Below the pieces are notes generated by a model. The model did no database searches. It saw only the letters and a list, made by a program, of their open reading frames with translations, and was not told the DNA's origin. From Raineya sp. (GTDB lineage: Bacteria > Bacteroidota > Bacteroidia > Cytophagales > Thermonemataceae): DNA of 35,942 nucleotides. The translations under genes were made by a program, and so were the position numbers. The stretch lies in NCBI GenBank assembly GCA_025054975.1, contig JANWZC010000003.1:1-35942 (forward strand), given 5' to 3'. Shown here piece by piece: positions 3,270 to 21,604 of the stretch. Positions within the stretch are counted from its first letter, which is position 1; every line of letters starts with the position of its first letter.

Positions 3270-3812
3270 TTAAACCCATTCTTTTTCAATGAGTTCGTCA
3301 AGTTTTTCGGGAGTAAGATTTTCGTAATATTTGTATATACCATCTTCGGATTTGAGTTTCACTTGCAGGCAAGGAGCCCCACCACAAGCCGCTAAACATT
3401 CAACGGCTTTGATAGTAAATTTGCCGTCTGGGGTAGTTTCGTTCAAACCAATACCTAAACGTTTTTGCAGATGCTCAAAGATTTCCTCTGCTCCGCAAAT
3501 CATACAAGGACCTGTACGACAAACCTCCAACACGTATTTGCCCACAGGTTGCAAATGAAACATAGTGTAAAAAGTAGCTACTTCATACACTTCAATCGGC
3601 TGAATTTGAAGTATTTCAGCTATGTAATCCATTACATTTACGCTAATCCAGCCGAATTCTGTTTGAGCAATATGCAAAATAGGCAAAATCGCCGACTTCT
3701 GACGCCCCTCAGGGTAACGCTTGATAATCTCTTGAATTTGCTTCATTCGCTCCTCCGAAAAACGAGGATTTTGATGATAACTTCTATCTGTGTTGAAAAC
3801 TGGGTGTCCCAT
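3270..3812 (-). CDS. nuoE: NADH-quinone oxidoreductase subunit E (24 kDa, thioredoxin-like 2Fe-2S)
   Basis: 180 aa; AILPILHIAQTEFGWIS, VYEVATFYTMFHLQPVGKY, CRTGPCMICGAEE, ECLAACGGAPCLQV (2Fe-2S cysteines). Confidence 0.93.
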   Translation of the reverse strand: MGHPVFNTDRSYHQNPRFSEERMKQIQEIIKRYPEGRQKSAILPILHIAQTEFGWISVNVMDYIAEILQIQPIEVYEVATFYTMFHLQPVGKYVLEVCRTGPCMICGAEEIFEHLQKRLGIGLNETTPDGKFTIKAVECLAACGGAPCLQVKLKSEDGIYKYYENLTPEKLDELIEKEWV

Positions 3813-3817
3813 AGTGG

Positions 3818-3880
3818 TAGTTAGTAGTTAGTACAGAGTAGTTAGTACAGAGTAATTAGTAATTAGTAGTTAGTAGTTAG
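3818..3880 (-). repeat. Array of 9 contiguous 7-nt repeats ending 5 nt before the nuoE start codon
   Basis: Coding strand: CTAACTA CTAACTA CTAATTA CTAATTA CTCTGTA CTAACTA CTCTGTA CTAACTA CTAACTA CCACT-ATG. Confidence 0.9.
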
Positions 3881-3958
3881 TGTAAATTAGTTGATATTAA
3901 GTATTTTGAGACTTCTACTTTTTGCTTTCTGAACATAACCAAAGAACGCATATCTAAC

Positions 3959-3981
3959 AACTTTTTACAAAGTAAAAAGTT
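3959..3981 (-). terminator. Candidate hairpin/terminator downstream of the PDH E2 gene
   Basis: Perfect 10-bp inverted repeat AACTTTTTAC-AAA-GTAAAAAGTT, 9 bp past the E2 stop codon. Confidence 0.4.
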
Positions 3982-3990
3982 TAACTTTTC

Positions 3991-5622
3991 CTACACTAAC
4001 ATTCTCATAGGCTCTTCTAAGTTGGCTTTGAGTGTTTTGAGAAATTCTGCTCCTGTTGCTCCATCTACAACACGATGGTCGCAAGTGAGAGTTACTTTCA
4101 TCAAATTTGCTACCTTGATTTCTCCCTTTTCGACTATCACAGTTTCTTTGATACTACCCACAGCCAAAATACACGCATCAGGCGGATTGATAATTGCTGT
4201 AAATTCATCAATATCATACATTCCCAAATTGCTAATGGTGAAAGTGCTACCTTCCCAATCTTTGGGTTGCAGTTTCTTTTCTTTTGCTTTTTGGCTAAAT
4301 TCTTTCACTTCGGCGGCAATTTGTGAAAGCGACTTCATATCGGCATTTCTCACCACAGGCACCAATAAACCATCTTCTACTGCCATAGCTACTCCAATAT
4401 TTACGTGGTAATTGACACGTATCTTATCCCCCTGCCAAGATGAATTAATTTTGGGGTGTTGTTTGAGAGCCATAGCCGTAGCTTTAATGACAATATCGTT
4501 GAAAGAGATTTTTACAGGGGAAAGCTCGTTTAGGCGGCTACGCATTTGTATTACGTTATCCATTCGGATAGAAACCGTCAGATAAAATTCAGGAGCTGAG
4601 AATTTGCTCTCTGAAAGACGCCGAGCAATGGTCTTACGCATCTGCGTAATGTTGATTTCTTCATAATTCTCCAAGCCTGCTCCTGTGGTGGTAATAGTTT
4701 TAGTTTCAGTAGAGGTTTGAACAGGGGTAGTTTGTGTAACAGGCTGAGGTTGCACAGAGGGTTTGAAGTTTTCTACATCTGCTTTGGTAATTCTACCTCC
4801 ATCGCCTGTACCCTTAATTTGAGCTAAATCATAGCCTAATTCTCTTGCCATTTTCCGAGCAAGCGGTGAGGCTTTAATTCTACCATTGCTGTCCGAAGAG
4901 TCGATTTTTGTGGAAACAGGGGGTTCGGAAGTAGTAGGAGTGTTAGTTTGTGAAACAGCAGGAGCAGTACTGCTTGTTTGAGCGGCTTGCAATAAAGTTT
5001 TCCAGTCGGCATCGGGTTCGCCAATGATGTAAAGAATTTCATCCACAGCAACTTTTCCACCTTCTTGCACGCCTAAATATAAAATAGTGCCTTTCTCATA
5101 CGCCTCTAACTCCATTACTGCTTTATCGGTTTCTATTTCAGCAAGTAATTCTCCAGGTTTGACGTAATCACCTACTTTTTTGTGCCATTTTACTACCACG
5201 CCTTCGGTCATGGTATCGCTCATTTTGGGCATGCGTTCTATTTTGGCACGAATTTCAGAAATATCTACCGAAATCGCAGATTGTACTGATGGAGTAGGTT
5301 GCTTACTTTCTACTTGTGAAACAGGTTGAGGAGTAGATTCTGTTGTTTTGGCTGAGCCTTGCAAAAGATGTTGATATTCTTCACCAGGCTTTCCCACAAT
5401 ATACAAAATACCATCAACAGGAACGGGCTTGCCTACTTCTGCACCAATGTAAAGTATTGTACCACTTTCATAAGCCTCCAAGTCCATTGTGGCTTTATCG
5501 GTTTCTACTTCAGCAATTATTTCACCTGCCTTGATAGTATCTCCTACTTTTTTATGCCACACTGCCACCACGCCTTCGGTCATGGTATCGCTCATTTTGG
5601 GCATTAGAACTACTTGTGCCAT
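3991..5622 (-). CDS. pdhC: Pyruvate dehydrogenase complex dihydrolipoamide acetyltransferase (E2) with two lipoyl domains
   Basis: 543 aa; two lipoyl motifs (ETDKATMDLEAYE, ETDKAVMELEAYE), an E3-binding domain (KASPLARKMARELGYDLAQIKGTGDGGRITKADVE) and catalytic TLTCDHRVVDGATGAEFL. Confidence 0.95.
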   Translation of the reverse strand: MAQVVLMPKMSDTMTEGVVAVWHKKVGDTIKAGEIIAEVETDKATMDLEAYESGTILYIGAEVGKPVPVDGILYIVGKPGEEYQHLLQGSAKTTESTPQPVSQVESKQPTPSVQSAISVDISEIRAKIERMPKMSDTMTEGVVVKWHKKVGDYVKPGELLAEIETDKAVMELEAYEKGTILYLGVQEGGKVAVDEILYIIGEPDADWKTLLQAAQTSSTAPAVSQTNTPTTSEPPVSTKIDSSDSNGRIKASPLARKMARELGYDLAQIKGTGDGGRITKADVENFKPSVQPQPVTQTTPVQTSTETKTITTTGAGLENYEEINITQMRKTIARRLSESKFSAPEFYLTVSIRMDNVIQMRSRLNELSPVKISFNDIVIKATAMALKQHPKINSSWQGDKIRVNYHVNIGVAMAVEDGLLVPVVRNADMKSLSQIAAEVKEFSQKAKEKKLQPKDWEGSTFTISNLGMYDIDEFTAIINPPDACILAVGSIKETVIVEKGEIKVANLMKVTLTCDHRVVDGATGAEFLKTLKANLEEPMRMLV

Positions 5623-11135: not shown

Positions 11136-12008
11136 TTACACAAATCTATCTACAATACGTTCAATAGCAGGTAAGTACGATTTACCAAATAAGTTCAAAT
11201 GCACAAATAACGGATATAAATTGTAGATACTCGCTCGTTCTACAAAATCCTTTTGCAGAGGAAAATGGTAGTTGTAAGAATCATAAAAATCTGCCTCAAA
11301 ACCACCAAATAATTGCGTAAAAGCAATTTCAGCTTCTCGTAAGCCGTAGTAAATTGCAGGATCTATTACTACTGCATAGCCTTTGTTATGCGTAATGACA
11401 TTGCCACTCCACAAATCCCCGTGTAAAAGTGCTGGTTTTTCGTTAGGGAGTAAATTAGGTAGCTTTTCATATAATTTATTCAACTTTTCCAGGAAAGATT
11501 TTTCAATCAATCTGTTGTAAAATGCCAATCCTGCCTGCACTTTCAACCTCTGCTCAATAAAAAATTCTATTCCATTGCGAGTAGGTGTATTAGTTTGTCG
11601 CAATGCACCAATATAATTGTCGTATTCCAAACCAAAAAAATCACTTGTATTTTGGTGTAATTCAGCTAAATGCCTACCTAAATCTTTCCAAAAAGTTTTA
11701 TTCGGATATCCCTCCAAGTATTCCAAAAGTAAATAGTTTTTGCCTTGTACCCTGCCCGAAGCAATAACTTGAGGCGTTGGAATACCACAAGAAGCAAGTT
11801 TCTGCAAACCTTTGATTTCTATTTCAAAGGTATCGTCAGGGGTATTTTCATTCCATTTGATAAAAAAAGTACCTCTGTCAGTAGCTACTTTTGCCGCATT
11901 ATTGATACACCCACCCGAAACTGCCTGAAAATGCTCTAATACAGGTAACTTCCCGAAACTTTGTACAAAAACAGCTTCTAAAAAATCATTAGGTTCAAAG
12001 CCAAACAT
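11136..12008 (-). CDS. Fructosamine kinase family protein
   Basis: FIKWNENTPDDTFEIEIKGLQKL, LLLEYLEG, LLHGDLWSGNV, VIDPAIYYGLREAEIAFTQLFGGF. Confidence 0.9.
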   Translation of the reverse strand: MFGFEPNDFLEAVFVQSFGKLPVLEHFQAVSGGCINNAAKVATDRGTFFIKWNENTPDDTFEIEIKGLQKLASCGIPTPQVIASGRVQGKNYLLLEYLEGYPNKTFWKDLGRHLAELHQNTSDFFGLEYDNYIGALRQTNTPTRNGIEFFIEQRLKVQAGLAFYNRLIEKSFLEKLNKLYEKLPNLLPNEKPALLHGDLWSGNVITHNKGYAVVIDPAIYYGLREAEIAFTQLFGGFEADFYDSYNYHFPLQKDFVERASIYNLYPLFVHLNLFGKSYLPAIERIVDRFV

Positions 12009-12013
12009 GTTGG

Positions 12014-12048
12014 TAGTTAGTAGTTAGTACAGAGTACAGAGTATTGAG
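12014..12048 (-). repeat. Array of 5 contiguous 7-nt repeats ending 5 nt before the fructosamine-kinase start codon
   Basis: Coding strand: CTCAATA CTCTGTA CTCTGTA CTAACTA CTAACTA CCAAC-ATG. Confidence 0.9.
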
Positions 12049-12052
12049 TACT

Positions 12053-12076
12053 TGCCCTGAGCGAAGCCGAAGGGCA
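12053..12076. repeat. Hairpin-forming dispersed repeat TGCCCT-gagcgaagccga-AGGGCA
   Basis: 6-bp arms; interior GAGCGAAGCCGAAGG resembles a common bacterial intergenic repeat (TGAGCGAAGTCGAAGG). Confidence 0.65.
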
Positions 12077-12254
12077 GAGTATTGATACAAAATGCAAAGT
12101 AAATATGCTTCAAGATAACCAAAAGTGTAAAAAAAAGTTTATGATTTTTCAAATTTATTTCAAAAAGCTATCTTGCAAAACAAAAACATTCAAAATATCA
12201 ATACTCACTACTTGCCCTAATTTTCCCAAAGGGTTATAATCAAATACTAAAATA

Positions 12255-12282
12255 CTCATTACTCATAACTCATTACTAACTA
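12255..12282 (+). repeat. Array of 4 contiguous 7-nt repeats ending 8 nt before the asnB start codon
   Basis: CTCATTA CTCATAA CTCATTA CTAACTA CTATCCCA-ATG. Confidence 0.88.
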
Positions 12283-12290
12283 CTATCCCA

Positions 12291-14198
12291 ATGTGTGGCA
12301 TAACAGGACTTTTAGCTTTCAACGAAGTAGGACGTTTCTCAATGATAAACTTACAAAATGCAACTGATGTACTTTCTCAGCGAGGTCCCGACTGGGGAGA
12401 TACTTATCTTGCTTATTGGGCAGGATTAGGGCATCGCAGACTCTCTATTATTGATACTTCTCCAAGCGGCAATCAACCTATTTCTGACCATACAGGTAGA
12501 TACACGATTGTATTCAATGGTGAAATCTATAATTATCAAAGTTTACGTCAGCAACTTGCTGAAAAAGGTATTCTCTTTCGTACCCAAAGCGATACAGAAG
12601 TGTTACTCTATGCCTACATTGTTTGGGGAACTTACGCTTTGGAACTTTTGCACGGCTTTTTTGCTTTTGCAATTTACGATAAAGACGAAAACTCTCTATT
12701 TTTGGCTCGCGACCGCTATGGTGTCAAGCCCCTACTCTACTATCTTGACGAAGACCGCTTCCTATTTGCCTCCGAAATGAAATCCCTTCTTCAATACGGC
12801 ATTGAAAAAAAACTTAATCTTGTAGCTTTGAGGCATTACTTACATCTCAATTACATTCCCGCACCACACACTATTTTTGAAAATATTTACAAACTTTTGC
12901 CTGGACATTTCGCCAAAGTTCAACGTGGTAAAATGGAAATTCAATGTTATTATCAAATTCCCAAAAATTATGAGGAATACCCCTCCCAACTTTCATATCA
13001 AGAGCAACAAATTCGCCTCAAACAACTACTTACTTCCTCCATTCGTAAGCGTTTGGTAGCAGATGTGCCTGTGGGAGCGTTTTTGAGCGGTGGTGTGGAT
13101 TCTTCAATAGCAGTAGCTTTGGCTTCACAAGAAGTTGAAAATCTGCAAACATTTTCTATTGGTTACTATGAAAATCGTTTTTTTGATGAAACCCACTATG
13201 CCGAAATAGTTGCCAAACATTTTCGCACTAAACATACTACTTTCAAACTTTCCAACAAAGACCTTTTAGACCACTTGGAAAGCATGCTCAATTACTTAGA
13301 TGAGCCTTTTGCTGATTCTTCGGCGTTGCCTGTGTTTATTTTGAGCAAATTTGTCAAACAGCATGTCAAAGTGGCTATTTCAGGCGATGGAGCAGATGAA
13401 ATGTGGGGTGGTTACAACAAACATTTTGCCGAATATCAAATCCGCAAGGGAGGGCTTTTGGCGAATTTAGTAACTATTTTACTTCCTTTATGGAAACAAT
13501 TTCCTCAATCTCGGAACAATTTTTGGAGCAACAAATTCAGGCAATTGGTTCGTTTTGCTGAAGGAAGCCAACTTTCAGCACAAGAACGTTATTGGCTTTG
13601 GGCAGGCTTTTGCAAGAACGATGAAGTAGAAAAACTTTTACACCTAAATTTGCGTACGCAGGCTCAAAACGAATACCAAAACGATAAAATGCAAATCTTA
13701 CAACATCTTCAAAAAAATGACGTAGAAGGCTTAAATGAAGTTTTTTATACGGATATGCAGTTAGTTTTGCCTAATGATATGCTCACGAAAGTAGATTTAA
13801 TGTCAATGGCAAACGGCTTAGAACTGCGAGAACCTTTTTTAGACCACGAATTGGTAAGTTTTGTATTTTCTTTGCCTGTAAGTTCAAAAATCAATCAAAA
13901 TATTCGCAAGCGACTCTTGCAAGATACTTTCCGAGAAATTTTGCCCGCTGAAATTTACAAGCGTCCTAAACATGGTTTTGAAGTACCTCTTTTAGATTGG
14001 CTTCGCACCGACTTGCGTTCTATGCTTGAAAATGAACTTCTGCAAGATAGATTTGTAGAAGAGCAAGGAATTTTTGATGTGGTAGAAGTCAAAAAACTTA
14101 AAAATCAGCTATTTTCCAATAATCCACAAGATAGCCATGCTCGTATTTGGGGACTTTTAGTATTTCAGCATTGGTGGAAAAGACTGATAAGAAAGTAA
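12291..14198 (+). CDS. asnB: Asparagine synthase (glutamine-hydrolysing)
   Basis: 635 aa; MCGITGLLAF N-terminal nucleophile, RGPDWGD, GHRRLSIIDTS, VFNGEIYNY, VGAFLSGGVDSSIAVAL, ISGDGADEMWGGY. Confidence 0.96.
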   Translation: MCGITGLLAFNEVGRFSMINLQNATDVLSQRGPDWGDTYLAYWAGLGHRRLSIIDTSPSGNQPISDHTGRYTIVFNGEIYNYQSLRQQLAEKGILFRTQSDTEVLLYAYIVWGTYALELLHGFFAFAIYDKDENSLFLARDRYGVKPLLYYLDEDRFLFASEMKSLLQYGIEKKLNLVALRHYLHLNYIPAPHTIFENIYKLLPGHFAKVQRGKMEIQCYYQIPKNYEEYPSQLSYQEQQIRLKQLLTSSIRKRLVADVPVGAFLSGGVDSSIAVALASQEVENLQTFSIGYYENRFFDETHYAEIVAKHFRTKHTTFKLSNKDLLDHLESMLNYLDEPFADSSALPVFILSKFVKQHVKVAISGDGADEMWGGYNKHFAEYQIRKGGLLANLVTILLPLWKQFPQSRNNFWSNKFRQLVRFAEGSQLSAQERYWLWAGFCKNDEVEKLLHLNLRTQAQNEYQNDKMQILQHLQKNDVEGLNEVFYTDMQLVLPNDMLTKVDLMSMANGLELREPFLDHELVSFVFSLPVSSKINQNIRKRLLQDTFREILPAEIYKRPKHGFEVPLLDWLRTDLRSMLENELLQDRFVEEQGIFDVVEVKKLKNQLFSNNPQDSHARIWGLLVFQHWWKRLIRK

Positions 14199-14249: not shown

Positions 14250-15803
14250 ATGCAATCTTTACCCCTACTACCCATAGGACAACAAGAATTCAGCGAAATT
14301 CGTCAGACTAAACGTTTATACGTTGATAAGACCGATTTTATTTATCGCCTTGTAACGCATAGCAGTTACTTTTTCTTTCTTTCACGTCCTCGTAGATTTG
14401 GTAAAAGTTTGCTTATCAACACGCTTAAAGAACTTTTTTTGGGCAAGAAAGAACTCTTTGAAGGACTCTTTATCTATGATAAAATTCAATGGCAAACTTT
14501 TCCTGTCATTCATTTGGATTTCAGTAAGTTACCTTTTCGCAAAGAAGGACTTGAAAAAGCCCTTGCCACCAGAATGAAAATGATTGCTGACAATCATCAA
14601 GTAAAACTCTCTGCTGAAAGTATAGGAGCATTGTTTGAAGAACTTATCCAAAAACTTTCTGAGAAATATCAACAAAAAGTCGTTATTCTCATTGACGAGT
14701 ACGATAAGCCTATCACTGATGTTTTAGAAATAGGCAACAACCAACAAGCCCACGAAAACAGAGATATCCTAAGAAATTTTTACAGCATTGTCAAGGGCAG
14801 TTCCACCTACATTCGCTTTTTCTTTCTCACAGGTATCACACGTTTCACCAAAGTCTCTCTTTTCTCCGAACTCAATAATTTGGTAGATATTTCTTTTCAC
14901 AAAGATTTTCATAACTTGCTCGGATACACCCAAGATGAAATCGTACAATATTTTCAACCTTACCTGCAACTATTTGCCCTTGAAAATAACTGCTCAATCC
15001 AAGAAGCCCTTGAAAAAATAAAATTCTGGTACAATGGCTATTCGTGGAATGGTAAAGATAAAGTCTATAACCCATTCTCAGTGCTTTGTTGTTTAGAAGA
15101 AAGGGCTATCAAAAATTATTGGTTTGAAAGTGGCACACCGAAAATGTTAGTTAATTTGTTGTATAAACAAGGCATCTATGATTTGCGAGACGTAAAAGCT
15201 AATTTCAGTCTTATCAATAATTTTGATATTGATAACCTTAATGCCGAAACCTTACTTTTTCAGACAGGCTACCTGACCATTACAAGCATTGATGAATTTG
15301 ATGATTATGTCCTCAATTATCCCAACAAAGAAGTAGAACTTTCCCTCACACAACATCTTTTAGGGGCTTATGCCTATCAAATGAAACACGCTACTACTGC
15401 CAATCAAATTGCCAAAGCCATTCGTAATCACGACCTTAACCTTTTGGTGGAAACTATCAATATCCTGTTTGCTGATATACCTGCTGAAATCTTTCTTGCC
15501 AAAAAAGAAGCCTATTATCATTCCGTTTTATTTCTGGCTCTCAAGCTTGCTGGTTTTCACGTACAAGCAGAAGTCAGAACCTCCAAAGGTAGAATTGACG
15601 CTATCCTGCAATACGATAACCGAACCTATTTATTTGAATTCAAACTTGACCAAAATGCTCAAATCGCTCTCCAACAGATTGAGCAAAAAGAATATTTCAA
15701 AAAATACCTTCAACAGCCTAATCAACACAAAATTTACTTGGTGGCTATCAATTTCAGTAGTGAAAAAAAGGAAATTACAGATTTTTCTATTCAGAGCTAT
15801 TGA
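14250..15803 (+). CDS. AAA-ATPase-like protein with a C-terminal PD-(D/E)XK nuclease-like domain
   Basis: [29 protein letters not shown]...[35 protein letters not shown]-terminal [31 protein letters not shown]. Confidence 0.9.
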
Positions 15804-18800
15804 CTTCAGCAACGGAAGAAGCATTAGCATTATTTTCGTTTTCTTCATATTCCATTTTTTCAATTTTAGCCACTGATGAAATTTCATCATCTTTGTTGAG
15901 TGTAATGAGTTTTACGCCTTGTGTGGCACGCCCTTGTAAGCGTAAATCGCTTACGCGTATGCGTATGGTAATGCCCGACTTATTGATAATCATCAAATCA
16001 TCTTTGTCTGAAACTTCTTTGATAGCTACTAATTTACCTGTTTTTTCGGTAATATTCATAGCTTTTACTCCTTTGCCACCTCTTGCTGTAATTCTGTACT
16101 CCTCTACCTCCGACCTTTTGCCAAAACCTCTCTCTGAAACTACCAACAAATGTTGATTTTGACTTTGCACACATACCATACCAATTACGACATCATCAGG
16201 GTTATTTTCATCTAACCAGATTCCTTTTACTCCTGTGGCATTGCGTCCCATAGGGCGTACATCTTCCTCGTGAAAATGAATAGCTCTGCCCGACTTGGTT
16301 GCCATAATAATATGGTCGTTACCCGTAGTCATTCGGACTTCAATGAGTTTATCACCTTCGTTGATATTGATAGCATTGATACCCGTTGCTCTCGGACGCG
16401 AATAAGCCTCCAAAGTTGTTTTCTTGATAATTCCTTTCTCGGTACACATCACCAAGTAATGGTTGTTGATGTAGTCATCATCGTCCAAAGTTTCTACATT
16501 AATGACAGCTCTCACCTTATCGCCACTTTCAATTTGAATAAGATTCTGAATAGCACGACCTTGAGCAGTTTTGCTACCTTCGGGAATTTCATACACTTTT
16601 ATCCAAAAAACTTTACCGCTTTCTGTGAAAATGAGCAAATAGTTGTGGTTAGTGGCTACAAAAAGATGTTCGGTAAAATCATCTTCTCTGGTAGATACAC
16701 CTCGTGAGCCTACGCCTCCACGTCCCTGTACGCGATACTCTGAAAGTGGAGTACGTTTGATGTAGCCCTTATGTGAAATCGTAATAACTACCTGCTCATC
16801 GGCAATCATATCTTCCTCCTGAAATTCCTCTGCTGAGTACACAATTTCTGTTCTACGTTTATCGCCATAGCGTTCTTTGATTTCAAGCAGTTCTTGCTTG
16901 ATGATATTCATTCTGCGTTTTTCATTTATCAGAATGTTTTCTAAATCCGCAATAAGAGCCGTAATTTCTTGATTTTCAGCAATAATTTTTTCTCGCTCCA
17001 AACCTGTAAGGCGTTGCAAACGCATATCCAAAATGGCTTTGGCTTGCACTTCGGAAAGAGCAAAATTGTTTATCAAATCTGCTTTGGCAGTATCGGGGTC
17101 TTGGGAATTGCGTATAAGCGTAATGACAGCATCTAAATTATCCAAAGCAATCAGTAATCCTGCTAAAATGTGAGCCCTTTTTTGAGCCTCGTTCAAATCG
17201 TATTTGGTGCGGCGAATTACTACCTCGTGGCGATGTTCAACATAAAATTTAATAAGTTCTTTGAGGTTCAAAGTGGCTGGTCTTCCTTTTACGAGAGCAA
17301 CATTATTGACACTAAACGCTGTTTGCAACTGCGTGTATTTGAATAAGTTATTCAGCACTACGGCTGGAATAGCATCTTTTTTGAGTTCATATACAATGCG
17401 TAAGCCATCGCGGTCGGATTCGTCTCTAATGTCGGAAATTCCCTCAATTTTCTTTTCATTGACTAATTGAGCGGTTTTTTCAATCATTGCCGCCTTATTG
17501 ACCATATACGGAATTTCCGTAACTACAATCAAATCCTTGCCCGACTTGCTTTGCTCAAAATTCGCTTTGGCACGAATAATAATTCTGCCCCTTCCTGTTT
17601 TGTAAGCATTTTTCACGCCTTCATAGCCGTAAATAATGCCTCCTGTGGGGAAATCAGGAGCTAAAATGTACTTCATTAAATCGTTGATGGTAATGTCAGG
17701 GTTATCAATATATGCCAAAATGCCATCAACAACCTCTGAAAGATTATGTGGAGGCATATTAGTTGCCATACCTACCGCAATACCTGATGTTCCATTGATA
17801 AGCAAGTTAGGAATGCGAGCAGGCAATACCGTAGGTTCTGTGAGAGAATCATCAAAATTAGGTTGAAAATTGACAGTGTCTTTATTGATTTCGCCGATAA
17901 GTTCTTCGGCAATGCGTTGCAAACGAGCTTCGGTGTTGTGATTGATAAAACCATTTGCCACAAACGAATGGCAAGCACTATCTACTTTCACCGAATACAC
18001 AATTTCAGGTTCAGATTGTTTTTCGCAACTTGCTACCGTGGCATAATAATAACGTTTGGCTATTAGTTCCTGAAATAAAGTCTGCAAATAGGTGTTATTG
18101 AGAGCGGCAAGAATTTGCTCACTATAACGCTCAATTCTTTCATATCGGTCAAGATTATGTTTCTGCAAGAATTTCTTGGGAACATACTTGCGAATATACT
18201 CGGCAATATACGGAATGAAATCTCTGCTCAGAGCGTATTTTACAGGATTTTCTTGTTGTCTTTTACGTTCTTGTTCAAGGAGATGAGCTAATTTTTCGGC
18301 TTTTTGGGTGGCAAAATTGATATTTTCATAAAATAGCTGAATATTATGAAAACCACTAACGCTCAATTTGTACTCTTTTCTATTTTTTGAACGACTAATA
18401 CGACTCACCACTCCAAATTCCAAAAGTAAAACTTGTAACTGCTCTGCTAACGTGAGGCTTTGCGTACAATATTGCAAGCAAATAGTATTTTTTTCAAGCA
18501 AGGAAACACTGCCATCGCCTTCAAACAAGTATTGCAGAAATACTTTTTGGGCTTCTTTGGGGGCTTGCAGAACACAATCAGGAATTTGCTTTTGAGTAGA
18601 TTTTTGCCCCACTAATTGAGCAAAAAGTTCATCTTTGGCAAATTCTTGTGTATTTTGCACATCAAATTCGTAAATAACTTTCCCCGAAGGCAATCTTCTT
18701 TGATAGCTATAAAATCTTGAACCAATCAATTCTTGGTAAGCCTGCAAAAATTTTTCAAAATATTGCTTATCAGTATTGTTGAAGGTAACTCTTTTCTGCG

Positions 18801-19596
18801 ATACAGAGCCTTCGGCAATTAGGCAAGCCGCTACAATACTCCGATTGATTTGCTCAGCGGTAGCTTTTTCTGCGTAAATATTTGTTTGGCTTCTTTCTAT
18901 AACAATTTTATCCCCTGCTTGAACTTTGTCAAGGGTTTTCCAAACGAATATAGGTTTGCCTGAATTATCTTTACTGAATACAAGTACAGGGTGATTAGCT
19001 GAACCTTTGATTTTATAGCCTTCTTGCGTAATAAGTTGCCAAACAGGGTGATAACCTGAATTGAAAAATTTAGTTGCTTGATGTACTTTTTGATGCATAG
19101 AAAGCACTTTTACATCAATGGTTTGTTCGCTGTTGAGAGCAGAATTTTTGACCACATCTTGCAAGCGAATAAGTCCTAAATGTGTTTTGATAAGGGTATC
19201 TCCTGTAAGGCAATAACGCATAGCCGCTGGGCTATCTCCGTCAATAGAGCCAAAATTGCCTTGTCCATCTACTAATGGGTAGCGTAAAGACCATTCCTGA
19301 GCCATACGCACCATAGTTTCATAGACGGAAGAGTCGCCGTGAGGGTGATATTTACCTAAAATTTCTCCAACAATACGAGCCGATTTCTTATAGGGTTTGT
19401 TATGCAAAACGCCCAATTCCATCATTCCATACAAGACGCGTCTATGGACAGGTTTTAAGCCATCGCGTACATCGGGCAAGGCTCGCGAAACAATTACCGA
19501 CATAGAATAATCTATGTAAGCGGTTCGCATTTCGTCTTCAATATTGACAGGAAAGATATTGGAGGGGCTTTCAAGAGTTTTGTTATCGTCTAACAT
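15787..19596 (-). CDS. gyrA: DNA gyrase subunit A precursor containing an in-frame intein
   Basis: 1269 aa; N-extein ends ...[14 protein letters not shown]-extein starts [30 protein letters not shown]. Removing 426 aa leaves an 843-aa GyrA. Confidence 0.96.
17935..19212 (-). mobile_element. GyrA intein (426 aa) with LAGLIDADG/DOD homing-endonuclease motifs
   Basis: Begins Cys ([21 protein letters not shown], block A), block B-like [14 protein letters not shown] motifs [11 protein letters not shown] and [12 protein letters not shown], blocks [24 protein letters not shown], +1 Thr. Codon boundaries checked on the DNA (tgc at 19212-19210; aac at 17937-17935). Confidence 0.95.
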
Positions 19597-20809: not shown

Positions 20810-21571
20810 ATGCCACAAAAAATTGTAACCGCCAACTGGAAAATGAATTTGACCTTGCCCGAAGCCAATACCTTGATTTCCGAAGTTACCAACATTTTGA
20901 AAGATGAAAAACGAAATTCCGCAGAAGTAATTTTTGCTGTTCCGTTTGTGTATGTGCAATATTTCAGTAGTTTTCTGAAAGGACAACCTTTTGCTATTGC
21001 CGCACAAAACTGCTCCGAATACGAAAAAGGAGCATATACAGGTGAAATTTCAGCTCAAATGCTTGCTTCGGTGGGAGCAACTTGGGTGATTGTAGGACAT
21101 AGTGAAAGACGCTTGTATTACCACGAAACGTATCGTATTGTTGGTGAAAAGATACAAAGGGCTTTGGAAGCAGGCTTGAAAGTAATTTTCTGTTGTGGAG
21201 AAACTTTGGAAATTCGTGATAAAAATGAACATTTTGAATTTGTTAAAAATCAGTTGGAGGGCAGTTTAGCAGAAATTACAGCTGAACAAATGAAAAATAT
21301 CGTAATTGCCTATGAGCCTGTGTGGGCAATAGGAACAGGCAAAAATGCCACTCCCGAGCAAGCACAAGAAATGCATGCTGTTATTCGTAATTATTTGAAA
21401 CAAAAATTTGGCTCGCAAATTGCCCAAGATACAAGTATTTTGTACGGAGGTAGTGTGAATGCTCAAAATGCTAAAACTCTTTTTGCTTGCCAAGATGTAG
21501 ATGGCGGTTTGGTAGGAGGGGCTTCTCTGAAATCCCGAGAATTTGCTGAAATTGTGAAAAGCTATAATTAG
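20810..21571 (+). CDS. tpiA: Triosephosphate isomerase
   Basis: TANWKMN, VIVGHSERR, IAYEPVWAIGTGKNATPEQAQEMH, ILYGGSVNAQNA, DGGLVGGASL. Confidence 0.97.
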   Translation: MPQKIVTANWKMNLTLPEANTLISEVTNILKDEKRNSAEVIFAVPFVYVQYFSSFLKGQPFAIAAQNCSEYEKGAYTGEISAQMLASVGATWVIVGHSERRLYYHETYRIVGEKIQRALEAGLKVIFCCGETLEIRDKNEHFEFVKNQLEGSLAEITAEQMKNIVIAYEPVWAIGTGKNATPEQAQEMHAVIRNYLKQKFGSQIAQDTSILYGGSVNAQNAKTLFACQDVDGGLVGGASLKSREFAEIVKSYN

Positions 21572-21604
21572 ACGCAAGACATAAGACGCAAGACGCAAGA
21601 CACA
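21570..21604 (+). repeat. Array of 5 contiguous 7-nt repeats (AGACGCA-like) starting inside the tpiA stop codon
   Basis: AGACGCA AGACATA AGACGCA AGACGCA AGACACA; the first AG belongs to the tpiA TAG stop. Confidence 0.9.

Follow-up and report, generated by a model that had tools for sequence, protein, structure and literature searches.

Why should nine perfectly phased heptads end directly in front of a start codon, and is the start codon what they are anchored to? The question is raised by the nuoE locus of Raineya sp., a species of a slightly thermophilic genus whose first isolate came from a hot spring. It was addressed in the 35,942-nt stretch of DNA that carries the locus (hereafter, the window), across the genome and in other Bacteroidota.

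The nuoE array and other arrays of the window

On the minus strand, positions 3880 to 3818 hold two CTAACTA units, two CTAATTA, one each of CTCTGTA, CTAACTA and CTCTGTA, and two further CTAACTA, followed by a CCACT spacer (3813–3817, minus strand) and the nuoE ATG (3812–3810). The first-pass annotation had described nine perfect CTnnnTA heptads ending 5 nt ahead of the ATG, and TRF agrees, reporting a period-7 array at 3817–3881 (score 74); in the ACTnnnT register used below, the array occupies 3819–3881. The gene itself (3270–3812, minus strand) encodes the 180-aa subunit E of NADH-quinone oxidoreductase (NCBIfam nuoE_fam, 181 bits against a cut-off of 142). Its start codon is sound, since the R. 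orbicola protein (96% identity) aligns with it from residue 1. Upstream, a spacer of about 110 nt (3882–3990, minus strand) separates the array from the stop codon of the gene for the pyruvate dehydrogenase E2 component, dihydrolipoamide acetyltransferase (3991–5622, minus strand). This spacer is without counterpart at the R. orbicola locus (L061), and no further substantial copy of it was found within 1.55 Mb of the genome. It contains a perfect AT-rich inverted repeat, AACTTTTTAC-AAA-GTAAAAAGTT (3959–3981), a putative terminator for the E2 gene. Neither an Rfam match nor a tRNA gene was found in the window.

The first-pass annotation had left out two sibling arrays, a second heptad family and a stop-codon class. 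An APH-like phosphotransferase gene (11136–12008, minus strand) is preceded, 6 nt from its ATG, by five ACTnnnT units (12015–12049, minus strand), and a divergent asparagine-synthase-like gene (asnB; 12291–14198, plus strand), 9 nt from its ATG, by four ACTnnnW units (12254–12281, plus strand). Between the two lies a conserved promoter core with a putative −7 box, TATCTTG (12168–12174, plus strand), which reads TATATTG in genomes G001 and G002. The second family is represented by an array of AGACGCA units (reverse complement TGCGTCT; 21570–21604, minus strand), which abuts and overlaps the TAG stop codon of the triosephosphate isomerase gene (20810–21571, plus strand) in antisense. Separately, a palindrome, GCCCTGAGCGAAGCCGAAGGGC, lies within the APH-side heptad region (12054–12075) and was the sole copy of its pattern found in 1.55 Mb, and gyrA (15787–19596, minus strand) carries an apparent intein, matching NCBIfam GyrA_w_intein and an intein N-terminal splicing region.

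Heptad families and their polarity at CDS edges

The genome comprises 2.73 Mb in 353 contigs, of which 1.55 Mb entered the array census. Contigs with known ACT arrays were deliberately included, which inflates the number of ACT arrays per Mb but leaves orientation unaffected. Genes were called with a simple codon-model caller (86% coding), which recovered the expected genes of the window. Three consecutive CTnnnTA units matched 155 times in the 2.73-Mb genome against 2 in a reversed-text control, and these arrays are therefore not due to chance. A unit-free lag-7 scan of the 1.55 Mb returned 48 intergenic period-7 arrays, compared with 0–8 at each other period from 5 to 13; nearly all belonged to two families, ACTnnnT (27) and [GA]TCTnnT (18). 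Four-unit ACTnnnT arrays gave 116 matches in this genome against 0 in the control, and at least one was detected in 53 of 148 Bacteroidota genomes, a rough figure given control matches in some of them. The [GA]TCTnnT family, with GTCTTGT as its commonest unit, occupies many loci in this genome, is also abundant in G009 and is present in G002 and G023.

Within the unit-free ACT arrays, positions 1–3 and 7 deviate from the array consensus in 11–16% of units and positions 4–6 in 29–54%, a contrast somewhat inflated because the register was set on ACT. The conserved positions of the TCT family are 2–4 (T, C, T). Instead of a fixed TAACTGA unit, the ACT arrays contain variants that include ACTAACT, ACTCTGT and ACTCAAT, and G follows ACT in 3 of 274 units. 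Start arrays favour the G-free ACTAACT adjoining the ATG, and the ratio of ACTA to ACTC units is 36:45 in start arrays versus 6:71 in stop arrays (p about 1e-7).

In both families, it is the strand containing CT that reads into the CDS, whichever end the array adjoins. When the 3′ end of an array was required to lie at most 40 nt from the edge, 15 ACTnnnT arrays were found at start codons and 12 at opposite-strand stop codons; the corresponding numbers for [GA]TCTnnT were 12 and 7. This amounts to 27 start arrays in sense and 19 stop arrays in antisense, with only one clear reverse case (L212, minus strand); the excess of 46 over 1 has a p of about 7e-13 if arrays are treated as independent. 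Nine arrays lie mid-region, two fill short intergenic regions with genes close on both sides (L206, L267), and one ends at a contig end (L252). Since stop codons, approached in reverse orientation, account for about 40% of the edge arrays, the anchor is the CDS edge and not the start codon alone: placement relative to start codons is nonrandom, but it is not start-specific.

Most stop arrays sit between tandem genes. The TAG codon terminates 7 of 12 stop-array genes versus 19% genome-wide (p 0.003), and some stop codons fall within the array itself; small as the numbers are, this may be a sign of arrays spreading into gene ends. Start and stop arrays never occurred together on one gene, against 0.4 such genes expected, which has little weight at such numbers. 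In other Cytophagales, where genes were called as longest ORF only, start-sense loci (e.g., L176, L189, L195, L348) and stop-antisense loci (e.g., L167, L172, L185, L336 on both strands, L341, L352, L354, L361) recur. The rule is strong there but not complete, some loci being mid-intergenic or in other repeat contexts.

Several compound arrangements were also observed. At L269 (about 240–390), the space between two leftward-read genes holds one stop and one start array, some 15 nt apart and facing away from each other; together they make up a long, imperfect inverted repeat with the potential to form a hairpin. At L259 (1057–1148), about ten AGACACA units follow a TAG stop and lead directly into an ACTnnnT start array; the counterpart in the congener G002 has the ACT array only. 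At three G002 loci (L323, L325, L342), ACTATCT/ACTAATT heptads lie inside a longer repeated unit ending ATTGTGGAATTGAAAT, and these repeats are possibly CRISPR-like.

Leader properties and turnover between congeners

Judging from the sequence layout, start arrays are very probably part of 5′ UTRs and would be transcribed throughout: at nuoE the gap to the ATG is too short for a promoter, exact −7 boxes, where they occur, lie upstream, and at asnB and APH the heptads stand between promoter core and ATG. The 5′-leader position that had been proposed for the nuoE array is thus very probably correct. In this genome, the Bacteroidota −7 box TAnnTTTG occurs about 5-fold above reversed text and peaks 20–40 nt ahead of starts; several start-array genes have no exact box, and in the others it is found upstream of the array.

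Leaders with start arrays are predicted to fold weakly: their mean MFE is −4.7, compared with −10.0 across all genes and −15.3 once the array is reversed. Letter-shuffled arrays fold as weakly as real ones (−4.9), so composition accounts for the lack of structure and no specific heptad function is needed. ATG and GTG are absent from the 634 nt of ACT start-array sequence, and TTG occurs once, whereas reversal would give 6 ATG, 4 GTG and 16 TTG; this avoidance of start codons is not general, since the TCT family contains TTG and GTG. Leaders across the genome carry A at positions −11 to −14 and at −6, and SD-like G enrichment was not found in them. This profile matches the SD-less, A-rich initiation region of Bacteroidota described in F. 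johnsoniae, where low structure and A at −12/−13 and −6 promote initiation (Baez 2019, PMC6847099). Start arrays score 0.54 on the profile, versus −0.82 reversed and 0.79 on average for non-array genes, and hence do not outscore ordinary leaders.

Two candidate roles were rejected. The F. johnsoniae consensus is a single site and not an array, and the Raineya arrays are not phase-locked to its A−6/A−13 spacing: the gap modulo 7 is mildly in excess at 6 (6 of 18), and shifts of 1–6 nt bring no clear drop in the initiation score. As for stop codons in all frames, noted in the first-pass annotation, the nuoE array does hold them in all three, but as a general rule the property fails: it is found in 5 of the 16 start arrays of the ACT family, and stops would be more numerous in flipped arrays.

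Copy number differs across species. The nuoE upstream gap is 178 nt with nine heptads here, about 35 nt with about three in R. orbicola, and about 40 nt with one at L062. In two congeners, the divergent APH/asnB region consists of the promoter core, roughly 110–130 nt, heptads being absent, whereas here heptads lie between the conserved core and each ATG. The L267 start array has 13 units versus 5 at the orthologous position in G002, and the L269 stop array persists at the orthologous position in G001 with different unit content. A mobile element with the arrays as terminal repeats is not favoured, as the nuoE spacer lacks another substantial copy in the 1.55 Mb and heptads were added separately at the core edges.

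Competing explanations and known systems

Established for the class are its placement and polarity, the conserved core, the predicted absence of structure and the turnover between congeners. We tentatively prefer, with somewhat less than even confidence, to regard the nuoE array as a member of a genome-wide heptad class (ACTnnnT, [GA]TCTnnT) that expands at CDS edges, its start arrays acting as leader linkers. The translation-compatible linker is suggested by the low structure, the absence of ATG and GTG from ACT arrays and the F. johnsoniae-like leader profile. Before a start codon, the array would form the final part of the 5′ UTR and could serve as an elastic, unstructured, G-poor, AUG-free linker that leaves Bacteroidota ribosomes, initiating without a Shine-Dalgarno sequence, an open initiation region and so presumably affects translation. 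Units would be gained and lost quickly between species, while selection would keep the structure-free orientation for the strand reading into the gene, together with the CT core; single-strand binders, e.g., bS1 or cold-shock proteins, might bind it. The antisense stop arrays share the polarity, but they are not leaders and are not explained by the linker mechanism.

Nearly as likely is a neutral account, in which the arrays would be functionless microsatellites, made by slippage or recombination and persisting only at intergenic edges that tolerate them, clear of promoter cores. Their polarity may then be a by-product of purging bad orientations, namely those with structure or extra starts before a gene or missing stops at its end. 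Quick congener turnover, absence at orthologous sites and the sufficiency of composition for the lack of structure all fit such an origin. At stop edges the array does supply stops, as the TAG over-use indicates, and sense-strand stops number 73 there versus 10 if flipped. Against it stand the abundance of period 7 alone, the lower variability of the core positions relative to the triplet, and the TCT units, which supply no sense-strand stops yet obey the stop-edge rule. Neither the neutral nor the linker account explains the stop-side antisense arrays in both families.

A 7-nt pitch, combined with conservation of the CT core and a freely varying triplet, would also suit tandem single-strand sites, one heptad being one cold-shock-domain or S1 (OB-fold) site on the pyrimidine-rich RNA or DNA strand. 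The bound protein would regulate translation or transcription of the neighbouring gene, much as MacGregor proposed post-transcriptional regulators including CSPs for TAACTGA (PMC4679880). By analogy, GTCTTGT resembles the DNA consensus of B. subtilis CspB, GTCTTTG/C (PMC7825780), and one rule in two families fits Y-rich single-strand binding; we nevertheless consider these sites unlikely, as the sense RNA at stop edges is the purine-rich strand, ACTnnnT does not fit the CspB consensus, and the case is one of resemblance. The mirror symmetry of the rule at both CDS edges could instead reflect an outward Rho gate, RNA leaving the intergenic region either way carrying a G-poor unstructured array; the start-side transcript would be ribosome-protected, and an antisense transcript entering via the stop end would be unprotected and terminated by Rho. 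The prevalence at stops of ACTC units, each offering a UC step, agrees with such a gate. It is nonetheless very improbable, for most stop arrays have tandem genes on either side, a setting in which antisense transcription is not known, and TCT-family units are not C-over-G. We also give little credence to a general Bacteroidota CDS-edge mark, made up of 7-nt-pitch arrays with a CT core and free triplet in at least two unrelated families, the CT strand pointing into the CDS from either end and being read by a single-strand-binding or termination factor. Were it true, the mark would help translation at the start side and act against antisense or read-through transcription at the other.

In several bacterial groups, heptads are the prevailing tandem repeats. 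Two unrelated heptad families that follow one strict polarity at both gene ends in one genome, and a polarity that recurs in other Cytophagales, turn this into a testable rule, which would bear on how SD-less leaders are constructed, on the origin of new 5′ UTR sequence and on sequence marks at gene ends.

Heptameric tandem repeats in intergenic DNA are familiar from cyanobacteria as STRRs, which are used in strain fingerprinting. The Raineya arrays share their period and intergenic location; STRR unit sequences probably differ, and no CDS-edge anchoring of STRRs was found reported in the literature searched, whereas the Raineya arrays are edge-anchored. The first-pass annotation knew of no described start-codon-anchored class, which is contradicted by MacGregor (2015, PMC4679880), who reported TAACTGA direct repeats from marine Beggiatoaceae, from cyanobacteria and from five Bacteroidetes. 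Of 170 sets, 147 are oriented to a start codon and 12 to stop codons. In the Bacteroidetes member Flexibacter litoralis, 12 of 14 sets precede starts, and the Microcystis sample is mixed in its orientation. These repeats are mostly intergenic, a few nt before starts, and often replace the SD sequence. Both classes consist of direct 7-nt intergenic repeats, forward and within several nt of the start (5 nt at nuoE), with little or no RNA secondary structure, here as predicted; in another register TAACTGA reads ACTGATA, i.e., ACT plus four letters. MacGregor's class has one fixed unit, related heptamers being rare as repeats, whereas Raineya has numerous unit variants built on an ACT...T core, with the TCT family as its second. 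Within the open-licence literature searched, a degenerate core-plus-triplet unit, a second unrelated family under one rule and mirror placement at stops were not found described. Stop-side antisense arrays make up about 40% of edge arrays in Raineya versus 7% in MacGregor's collection, and the rule that arrays always point in, at both ends, appears to be new.
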